A stretch of 64,000 bases of DNA from Pseudoxanthomonas sp. SL93 (lineage in GTDB: Bacteria > Pseudomonadota > Gammaproteobacteria > Xanthomonadales > Xanthomonadaceae), in assembly GCF_026625825.1 (NCBI RefSeq), contig NZ_CP113065.1, forward strand, positions 3,711,501-3,775,500, in the 5' to 3' direction. This document shows, in pieces, positions 51,657 through 61,032 of this stretch. Within the stretch, counting starts at the first letter, position 1, and the number at the start of each line of letters is the position of its first letter. The notes below the pieces were generated by a model, which searched no databases, had not been told where the DNA came from, and worked only from the letters and a program-made list of their open reading frames with translations. The translations under genes and the position numbers were made by a program.

Positions 51657-51662
51657 AGCGTC

Positions 51663-51775
51663 ACCATCGAGACCGGCAGAGGGACAGGCCCGAAGAAGCC
51701 GGGGCAGCCAGCGACGCGCAAGCGCCGTGTAGGTGCCAAATCCTGCGGGGACCTCAGCGTCTGCCGGAAGATGGT
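51663..51775 (+). promoter_or_regulatory. SAM-I (S-box) riboswitch
   Basis: P1 pairs ACCATC (51663-51668) with GATGGT (51770-51775). Between them are the SAM-I core elements: CGAGACCGGCAGAGGGACAG, GGCCCGAAGAAGCCGGGGCA then GCC (P2/P3 region and kink-turn), AGGTGCCAAATCCTGC (J3/4 and P4) and the closing GGAAG. It senses S-adenosylmethionine and should turn the downstream metX-metB-hom operon off when SAM is high. The roughly 90 bases before the metX ATG contain two hairpins, CGAGCT/AGCTCG (51803-51820) and CCGTG/CACGG (51781-51795), but no T-run, so control is likely translational. Confidence 0.9.
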
Positions 51776-51867
51776 TCGTACCGTGTCCTCGCACGGCGAA
51801 CGCGAGCTCCGCGAAGCTCGGTGGTGCAGTCCCGTCCCGCAAGGGATCACGCCCACCGGATGCCGCC

Positions 51868-52914
51868 ATGAGCTTCGTCAGTCCTTCGCTCCATCGCCTT
51901 GCCGAGCCTTCGTCGCTCGAGGGCCTCCCGCTGTCTTCCACGCAGGACGATGCGCCCCGCGCCCTTCGCGGCGAAGTGGTGGTGGAACTGGCCATGCGCC
52001 ATGCCGGCACGCGTGCGGTGACGCTGCGTTACGAACTGCAGGGGCCAGTGGGCGCACCGGTGGTCTTCGTGGCCGGCGGCATTTCCGCGCACCGCCACCT
52101 GACCGCCAGCCACGTATTCCCTGAAAGTGGCTGGCTGAACGAGCTGGTCGCTGCTGGCCGCGCGCTGGATCCGGCGCAGCGGCAGCTGCTGGCATTCGAC
52201 TTCATCGGCGCCGACGGCCGCCTCGACGCGCCAATCGACTCCGCCGACCAGGCCGATGCCATCGCCAAGCTGCTGGGCGCACTGGGCATCGCGCGCCTGG
52301 AAACCTTCGTCGGTTATTCGTATGGCGCGCTGGTGGGCCTGCAGTTCGCCGCCCGCCATCCCGAACGCGTGAAGAAGCTGGTCGCCGTCAGTGGTGCCCA
52401 TCGCGCGCATCCGTATGCGGCCGCCTGGCGTGCCCTGCAACGGCGTGCCGTCACGCTGGGCCAGTTGCAGTGCGCCGACGCGCAGGGGCTGTCGCTGGCG
52501 CGGCAGTTCGCGATGCTCAGCTACCGCACGCCGGAGGAATTCGGCGAGCGCTTCGACAGCGCGCCCGAGATCGTCAACGGCCGCGTGCGCGTGGCCGCCG
52601 AAGACTACCTGGACGCCGCCGGCGCGCAGTACGTCGCGCGCACGCCGGTCATTGCCTACGTGCGCCTGTCCGAGTCCATCGACCTGCACCGCGTCGACCC
52701 CGCCGACATCCGCGTGCCCACGCTGGTGGTCGCGGTGGAAGGCGACCGCCTGGTGCCGCTGTCCGATTCCGTGGCGCTGGTGGAAGGCCTCGGCACGCTG
52801 GGCCAGCTGCGCGTGCTGCGCTCGCCCTACGGCCATGACGCCTTCCTGAAAGAAACCGACCGCATCGATTCCATCCTCACCTCGGCCCTGCGCGCCGCCG
52901 GAGACCTCGCATGA
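51868..52914 (+). CDS. metX: Homoserine O-acyltransferase (MetX family)
   Basis: The ATG at 51868 gives 348 residues, slightly shorter than typical MetX (about 370). The alpha/beta-hydrolase transferase core has PVVFVAGGISAHRHLTASHVFPESGW, nucleophile serine in FVGYSYGALVGLQFAARHPERVKK, acid region VEGDRLVPLSDSV and histidine in YGHDAFLKE. It acylates homoserine for entry into methionine synthesis; succinyl rather than acetyl transfer is likely because xanthomonad enzymes of this type often use succinyl-CoA. A serine O-succinyltransferase role is a less likely alternative, because the operon contains metB and hom under a SAM riboswitch. Overlaps metB by ATGA. Confidence 0.85.
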   Translation: MSFVSPSLHRLAEPSSLEGLPLSSTQDDAPRALRGEVVVELAMRHAGTRAVTLRYELQGPVGAPVVFVAGGISAHRHLTASHVFPESGWLNELVAAGRALDPAQRQLLAFDFIGADGRLDAPIDSADQADAIAKLLGALGIARLETFVGYSYGALVGLQFAARHPERVKKLVAVSGAHRAHPYAAAWRALQRRAVTLGQLQCADAQGLSLARQFAMLSYRTPEEFGERFDSAPEIVNGRVRVAAEDYLDAAGAQYVARTPVIAYVRLSESIDLHRVDPADIRVPTLVVAVEGDRLVPLSDSVALVEGLGTLGQLRVLRSPYGHDAFLKETDRIDSILTSALRAAGDLA

Positions 52915-54135
52915 GCAGCTTCATCCCCACCGACGCCGACACCGCCTGTCGTCCCGCCACCGCCGCCGTGCGCGCCGGCATCGACCGCGATAACCGCCTA
53001 CGGTGCCGTCACGCCGCCCATCGTGCTCTCGTCCAACTTCAGCTTCGCCGGCTTCGCGCAGAAGCGCGAATACGACTACACGCGCAGCGGCAACCCCACG
53101 CGCGACCTGCTGGCCGAGGCGCTGTCCGAACTGGAAGGCGGCGCAGGCGCCGTCATCACCGCGACCGGCATGGGTGCGATCACGCTGGTGCTCAACGCGC
53201 TGCTGGAGCCGGGCGACCGCCTGGTGGTGCCGCATGACGCGTACGGCGGCAGCTGGCGCCTGTTCAACGCGCTGGCGAAGAAGGGCCACTTCGAACTGAT
53301 CACCGCCGACCTGACCGATCCGCGCTCGCTGGCCGATGCGCTGGCACAGTCGCCCAAGCTGGTGCTGATCGAAACCCCGTCCAATCCGCTGCTGCGCATC
53401 ACCGACCTGCGCTTCGTCATCGAAGCCGCACACAAGGCCGGCGCGCGCACGGTGGTGGACAACACCTTCCTGTCGCCCGCGCTGCAGACGCCGATCGAAT
53501 TCGGCGCCGATGTCGTGCTGCATTCCACCACCAAGTACATCAACGGCCACAGCGACGTGGTCGGTGGCGCGGTGGTGGCGCGCGATGCGGAAACCCACCA
53601 GCAGCTGGTCTGGTGGGCGAATGCGCTGGGCCTGACCGGATCGCCGTTCGACAGCTTCCTGACGCTGCGCGGGCTGCGCACGCTGGATGCGCGCCTGCGC
53701 GTGCACCAGGAGAATGCCGATGCCATCGCGGCCTTGCTGGATGGGCATCCGGTGGTGTCGAAGGTGTACTTCCCGGGCCTGGCGACGCATCCGGGGCATG
53801 CGGTCGCCGCGCGTCAGCAGAAGGGTTTCGGCGCCATGCTGAGCGTCGAGCTGGAGGGCGGCGAAGAAGCCGTGCGCGCCTTCGTCGAAGGCCTGCGTTA
53901 CTTCACGCTGGCCGAGTCGCTGGGCGGGGTGGAAAGCCTGGTCGCGCATCCGGCGACGATGACGCATGCGGCGATGACCCCGGAAGCGCGCGCCAAGGCC
54001 GGCATCTCCGACGGCCTGCTGCGCCTGTCGGTGGGCATCGAATCCACCGATGACCTGCTGGCCGACATCGGTGCCGCCCTGGCGCGCGCCGAAGCCGTGG
54101 TGGCGGACTCCAAACGCAGGCTCGCCGACGCATGA
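52911..54135 (+). pseudogene. metB: Cystathionine gamma-synthase metB with a one-base insertion frameshift
   Basis: The ATG at 52911 (ATGA overlap with metX) begins MSSFIPTDADTACRPATAAVRAGIDRD, and the matching continuation YGAVTPPIVLSSNFSF appears one frame later. Deleting one A of the AA at 52992-52993 restores a continuous frame of about 407 residues. The downstream part has all PLP-enzyme motifs: YDYTRSGNPTRDLLAEALSELEGG, VVPHDAYGGSWRLF, the lysine in STTKYINGHSD (K208 in the restored frame) and TLAESLGGVESLV. As written, translation could only restart at GTG 53023, losing about 37 residues. Either a sequencing error or a real mutation; the function would be O-succinylhomoserine plus cysteine to cystathionine. 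Confidence 0.88.
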
Positions 54136-59649: not shown

Positions 59650-61032
59650 TCAGCACTCGATGACGTTCACCGCCAGTCCGCCGCGACTGGTTTCCTTGTA
59701 CTTGTCCTGCATGTCGCGGCCGGTGTCGCGCATGGTCTTGATGACCTTGTCCAGGCTCACCTTGTGCTTGCCGTCGCCGCGCATGGCCATGCGGCTGGCG
59801 TTGATCGCCTTCACCGCGCCCATCGCGTTGCGCTCGATGCACGGGATCTGCACCAGCCCGCCGATTGGGTCGCAGGTCAGGCCCAGGTTGTGTTCCATGC
59901 CGATCTCGGCGGCGTTCTCGATCTGGCTGGGGGTGCCGCCGAGCGCGGCGACCAGGCCGCCGGCAGCCATCGAGCACGCCACGCCTACTTCGCCCTGGCA
60001 GCCGACTTCGGCACCGCTGATGCTGGCGTTCTCCTTGTAGAGAATGCCGATGGCGGCGGCGGTCAGCAGGAAGTCGAACACGCGCTGCTCGCTGGCGCCG
60101 GGGCAGAAGCGGTCGAAGTAGTGCAGCACCGAGGGAATGATGCCGGCCGCGCCGTTGGTGGGCGCGGTGACCACGCGGCCACCCGCGGCGTTTTCCTCGT
60201 TCACCGCCAAGGCGTACAGGTTGACCCAGTCCAGCACCGTCAGCGGGTCGCGCATCGCCGCTTCCGGCTTGCTGGACAGTTCGCGGTGCAGCGCCGGTGC
60301 GCGCCTCGACACGTGCAGGCCGCCGGGCAGGGTGCCTTCCTCGCGGATGCCGCGTGCCACGCATGACTGCATGGCGATCCAGATGGCGCGCAGGCCGTCG
60401 CGGATCTCTTCCTCGCTGCGCCAGCAGGTTTCGTTCTCGAACATCATCTGGGCGATGCTCAACCCGCTGCGCTGGCACTGGGCCAGCAGTTCGTCGCCGC
60501 TCTTGAACGGATAGGGCAGCGGCGTCTCGTCGGCAACGATGCGGTCCGAGGCGGCATCATCCTGGTTCACCACGAAGCCGCCGCCCACCGAGTAGTAGTC
60601 GCGCGTGGCGATCACCTCATCCTGCGCGTCGTAGGCGGTGAACCGCATGCCGTTGGTGTGGTAGGGCAGCTTCTGCCGCTTGTTCATCAGCAGGTCGCGC
60701 TTCTCGTCGAAGGCGATCGCATGCGTGCCGCCCAGCTGCAGCTGCTTCGCACCGCGGATGCGTTCCAGCGCGGGCGGAATGATGTCGGGGTCGATCTCGT
60801 TCGGGTAATGGCCCTCCAGCCCCATCAGCACGGCCTTGTCTGTGCCGTGGCCGCGGCCGGTCAGCGCCAGCGAGCCGAAGACTTCGGCGCGGATGCGGAC
60901 CACGTCGTGCAGGCGGCCGGGTTCGGCCAGCCAGCGGGCGACAAAACGCGCGGCGGCCCGCATGGGGCCGACCGTGTGGGAGGAACTGGGACCGATGCCG
61001 ATCTTGAAAAGGTCGAAAGTGCTGACTGCCAT
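59650..61032 (-). CDS. sdaA: L-serine ammonia-lyase (serine deaminase)
   Basis: The 460-residue enzyme starts [29 protein letters not shown], the SdaA beta-domain signature. It contains the iron-sulfur cysteine motifs of the alpha domain (for example [24 protein letters not shown] and [33 protein letters not shown]). It converts L-serine to pyruvate and ammonia with a 4Fe-4S cluster. It is divergent from the glutaredoxin-like gene across 64 bases. It links serine, which can be formed from glycine, with the glycine cleavage genes at 6.5-8.7 kb functionally, though not physically. Confidence 0.96.

Follow-up and report, generated by a model that had tools for sequence, protein, structure and literature searches.

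A one-base offset at positions 52990-52995 (+ strand) of the window, a 64-kb stretch of a one-contig Pseudoxanthomonas chromosome, splits metB, the cystathionine gamma-synthase gene of the methionine operon, into two reading frames. The offset is there in the sequence, it is absent from every relative in which the gene could be read, and no other damage accompanies it. On balance, we lean towards considering the metB of this species an ordinary, functional gene and the offset probably an error left behind by sequencing or assembly that does not exist in the living cell, in which case the chromosome itself would carry an intact metB. A real and very recent null mutation of the strain is quite possible, if less probable. 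Both weightings are a matter of judgement and not of computation.

The met operon and the break in metB

The chromosome is 3,845,069 bases long (3.85-Mb), in a genome that is 100% complete with a contamination value of 0.05; the GC content of the window is 0.673. A SAM riboswitch, metX, metB and hom follow one another in this order, with ATGA overlaps at both metB joints. The first-pass annotation had placed metB between intact metX and hom behind a SAM riboswitch, and all of these parts were recovered (P0001 is the intact protein described in the next section):

51661-51777, + strand: SAM riboswitch (RF00162), leader of the met operon; 67.1 bits against a gathering score of 44.4, over the whole model (1-108)
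51868-52914, + strand: metX, homoserine O-succinyltransferase, intact; NF006449, 558.1 bits (cut-off 296); its stop overlaps the metB start
52911-53237, + strand: frame opened by the normal metB ATG; native from 52911 to 52991 (residues 1-27 identical to P0001), out of frame after 52991, stop at 53235-53237
52990-52995, + strand: one-base frame break, found in the sequence, the alignment and the mapping of P0001
52993-54135, + strand: body of metB, coding for cystathionine gamma-synthase / O-succinylhomoserine (thiol)-lyase; its translation equals residues 28-407 of P0001
54132-55205, + strand: hom, intact gene of homoserine dehydrogenase; start ATG and metB stop overlap in ATGA

The same gene order is described for the metXB-hom (met) operon of Xanthomonas campestris pv. 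campestris (XC1251-XC1253), in which the first gene is named metA and the 5' leader is SAM-I-like, where the window has RF00162 (PMC6230763); the window's metB belongs to the same family and has ATGA overlaps with its neighbours. The window differs in that its metB is split by one base, unlike the intact gene of the relatives examined. A role of the operon in cysteine synthesis, with MetX acting as a serine O-succinyltransferase, was considered and is not supported: MetX carries Ser-Tyr in the motif GYSYGA, a pair tied to homoserine rather than serine (PMC9506716), and of the 20 amino acids only methionine is reported to rescue the Xanthomonas operon mutant (PMC6230763).

The first 27 codons of metB, counted from ATG 52911, lie in a different frame from the remainder of the gene. 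The frame from this ATG reads MSSFIPTDADTACRPATAAVRAGIDRD and then runs off the metB frame until the stop at 53235-53237, while the main frame, which ends at 54135, includes TAYGAVTPPIVLSSNFSF. In an alignment with ten relatives the window has one additional base at 52990-52995 with respect to each of the ten, and P0001 maps onto the window's own genome in two different frames, with residues 1-28 in one and 25-407 in the other; with identities of 96% and 99% to a single protein, these two matches exclude chance. The frame is thus interrupted relative to intact orthologues, as in a frameshifted pseudogene. An offset of one between the two metB frames at this very place had been proposed in the first-pass annotation, together with the idea that joining the frames restores a normal family N-terminus; translation, alignment and mapping confirmed the former with its coordinates, and P0001 equals both frames end to end.

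The break lies at a mere AA and not in a homopolymer run. The main frame is open from 52915 onwards as 406 codons that begin right after the metX stop and contain no other stop; it is also the frame of metX, from which the metX stop at 52912-52914 alone separates it. Its earliest ATG, GTG or TTG codon is GTG 53023, within the conserved N-terminal segment. The region 53023-54135 scored 753.9 bits against NF006450 (cut-off 730) and 552.8 bits against TIGR02080 (cut-off 504.55), the intact P0001 reaching 815.1 and 588.6 bits, respectively; by these curated cut-offs the predicted product of the metB body belongs to the cystathionine gamma-synthase / O-succinylhomoserine (thiol)-lyase family. Residues 40-408 of the cystathionine gamma-synthase structures 6ld7 and 6ld9 (408 aa) match the main frame (E 1e-207 to 1e-208), whereas the N-terminal 39 residues, which in that protein belong to the same chain, are found in the separate frame in the window. 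A full N-terminus in a single frame, absent from the window, is present in 114 of 118 loci compared.

Intact metB in relatives and in an identical allele

The 118 loci comprised 110 from the searches for metB relatives and for genomes of the genus, plus eight more. One continuous metB frame, from an in-frame start through the body, was found in 114 of them (111 distinct, given three duplicate pairs), and none of the 114 had the two-frame arrangement. The other four were the window's own copy (L086), two copies cut by contig ends (L063 and L110) and a paralogue with 44% identity from the reduced genome G024 (L215), with the inclusion of which a recount gave 115 continuous frames. The genus search returned 38 genomes, and metB was continuous in 35 of the 37 other than the window's, the exceptions being G015, cut by a contig end, and G024, without an orthologue; metB is a core gene here. 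The closest named relatives by metB were Pseudoxanthomonas sp. Root630 and P. japonensis, in a comparison from which the genome's own records may be omitted. Judged from these sequences, the frame break is private to the window genome.

Two records deserve separate mention. Genome G024 (Pseudoxanthomonas, 2.0 Mb, 94% complete) had no metB orthologue among the matches, only the paralogue L215 at 44-45% identity, and either natural loss or incompleteness of the genome is possible. A contig titled Bacillus subtilis SK7B5 carries a metB about 80% identical to that of the window, and this record looks mislabelled or contaminated.

A protein search in which 8,000 candidates were scored gave 4,225 matches, of which the best 120 were listed. 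The best of these, P0001 (407 aa, encoded on a contig of 32,361 bases), is identical over its whole length to the first 27 codons of the window's metB followed by the main frame from 52993. Because P0001 equals both window frames end to end, an intact copy of the same allele exists; it may come from another strain, or from the same strain sequenced otherwise. Among the 120 matches listed, 118 were 407 aa long, one 404 and one 398, and none was as short as the 370-aa frame.

The body of the gene bears no sign of decay. Against three relatives, the dN/dS of the metB main frame was 0.033, 0.037 and 0.033, compared with 0.065-0.079 for metX, 0.054-0.090 for hom and 0.056-0.087 for the nearby control sdaA, all above the metB main frame; neither a further lesion nor a relaxed dN/dS was found in that frame in these comparisons. 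With its body undamaged and its dN/dS low, the event must therefore be very recent, or must never have happened. Since metB is a core gene without decay, an identical intact allele exists and the offset occurs in no relative, we favour an error over a mutation.

Relatives sharing the two frames, which the first-pass annotation had named as evidence against its own reading, were thus looked for and not found, and the same comparison supports its two principal options, an error or a strain-specific mutation. Its third option was programmed frameshifting, which it had itself thought less likely; for such frameshifting, conserved in the lineage, nothing speaks beyond the two overlapping frames, the arrangement occurs in none of the 114 continuous relatives, and we reject it as the least credible of all the explanations considered.

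It is extremely unlikely that the offset is real but tolerated, with enough MetB still made by occasional frame slippage, from a start within the main frame or by reading through the stop of metX. The MetB body now lies in the metX frame, so that readthrough of 52912-52914 would yield a MetX-MetB fusion with a proline-rich linker, and the 406 open codons right after that stop would accommodate it. But before 52993 the open stretch reads a normal metB start out of frame, which in a genome of 67% GC calls for no special explanation; moreover, neither a recognised slippery site nor a Shine-Dalgarno (SD) sequence is present, and the arrangement occurs in no relative. Production of a working, truncated enzyme from GTG 53023 is likewise unlikely: this codon has no SD-like site (best duplex -3.0 kcal/mol, against a background median of -3.2), and the protein would miss the conserved segment YGAVTPPI.

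Frame breaks elsewhere in the chromosome

We compared 424 kb of the chromosome with the corresponding regions of three relatives, looking in conserved coding contexts for private indels that change the frame, and a second 400 kb with one relative (241 kb aligned), a total of 824 kb or about one fifth of the chromosome. In the first sample, no frame break other than that in metB was seen in clearly coding sequence; in the second, no frame was broken in the own genome. A first screen and a phase screen both missed metB itself, because the relatives have long upstream open frames, whereas a local test found it; by this test 2,587 of 6,000 random positions were scannable (about 43%, or ~183 kb of the 424 kb).

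Private phase changes in all three comparisons numbered four in the own genome by the phase screen, against 1, 0 and 2 in the three relatives. In conserved contexts free of stops, the local test gave 19 private indels that change the frame, against 2, 4 and 1. Being the outgroup among these four genomes, the own genome is expected to have a higher count. Of the 19, metB and the following three passed the coding criteria:

61090: lies upstream of sdaA, which starts at 61032
3784290 (chromosome position): upstream of an intact start
3794479: in an open frame of 135 codons without coding-like composition, the sole candidate remaining as a possible break

Fourteen places (eight plus six) were checked by translation; the others among the 19 were assessed on coding criteria alone. 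Most translated places fell before an intact start or past the end of a gene, and some, e.g. 218852 and 309472 (sample coordinates), have the look of non-coding or antisense sequence. Restricted to the most conserved contexts, the counts of private indels were six in the own genome and 1, 0 and 0 in the relatives. One of the six, at 51791, is common to G022 and hence not private in the wider genus: there, in the operon leader, the window has one base fewer than G020, G017, G027 and Root630, and G022 is without this base too. Just two places, metB and 218852-218858, were broken in the own genome in each of the three comparisons, the latter with antisense-like composition, while 103251, 156263 and 156695, seen in one or two comparisons, are intergenic.

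An error-rich assembly is therefore not supported in the sampled parts, where metB is the sole clear coding break and the assembly looks clean. Either a low rate of residual errors or a single real mutation could account for one event in the fifth of the chromosome that was sampled. Frame errors that mimic gaps in amino acid synthesis have been described for HisD of Azospirillum brasilense and AroC of Shewanella oneidensis (PMC7311316); as in the window, a biosynthetic gene is split in an otherwise good genome, with the difference that here an error is no more than the likelier explanation of the split.

Methionine synthesis with and without metB

Were the insertion real, it would inactivate metB, so that no cystathionine would be made from O-succinylhomoserine and the strain would need methionine (or homocysteine or cystathionine). 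About 0.9 kb between 53237 and hom would be left untranslated, and loss of translational coupling together with polarity would weaken hom. Threonine should still be made, as a bifunctional thrA-like aspartokinase-homoserine dehydrogenase encoded elsewhere in the genome should cover the loss. Several observations are in line with such a mutation: the sequence as given, the clean sampled assembly in one contig of a complete genome, a site that is not a homopolymer and an internal GTG poorly suited as a start, as well as the lack of a metB orthologue among the matches of the reduced genome G024. Against it stand the missing second lesion and unraised dN/dS, the intact P0001 and the rarity of fixed loss of a conserved core gene, seen in none of the 35 other readable genomes of the genus.

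The gene content of the genome bears on the outcome. A search with PF01053 gave five matches, three above the cut-off and two full-length, metB and a gene of cystathionine gamma-lyase type. The latter (L001 1447-2631, about 3603601-3604785) adjoins a cystathionine beta-synthase gene, resembles cystathionine gamma-lyases most among proteins of solved structure and scored 544.1 (cut-off 513) against NF005871, a model named cystathionine gamma-synthase; as a bypass of MetB it is conceivable. An O-succinylhomoserine sulfhydrylase elsewhere in the genome, the search for which had been suggested by the first-pass annotation, was not among these matches as a separate gene, nor was an O-acetylhomoserine sulfhydrylase. 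Methionine synthases of the MetE and MetH types are encoded; no MetQ of the methionine importer was detected. When the first gene of the X. campestris operon carries an insertion, the strain becomes a methionine auxotroph (PMC6230763); as the mutation blocks the whole operon, it is no test of metB alone. Together with the two full-length PF01053 genes, this auxotrophy makes plausible the earlier expectation that loss of metB would block methionine synthesis. A strain that has the offset and is still a prototroph, through the MetX-MetB readthrough fusion or through cystathionine made by the gamma-lyase paralogue, is very unlikely, and would imply a recent rewiring of a core pathway.

Many Stenotrophomonas maltophilia strains need methionine. 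Within the family, methionine auxotrophs have been reported among Lysobacter, in six isolates and in two of five type strains tested (PMC7104288), so that a null mutation is not implausible on this account.

The finding is ordinary under either reading and has little significance outside annotation. If the offset is an error, automatic pathway prediction would wrongly label the strain a methionine auxotroph. If it is real, methionine auxotrophy would be expected, because the only other full-length paralogue found is of the cystathionine gamma-lyase type, and the strain would add another recent loss of methionine synthesis to a family with a reported methionine requirement in Lysobacter (PMC7104288).
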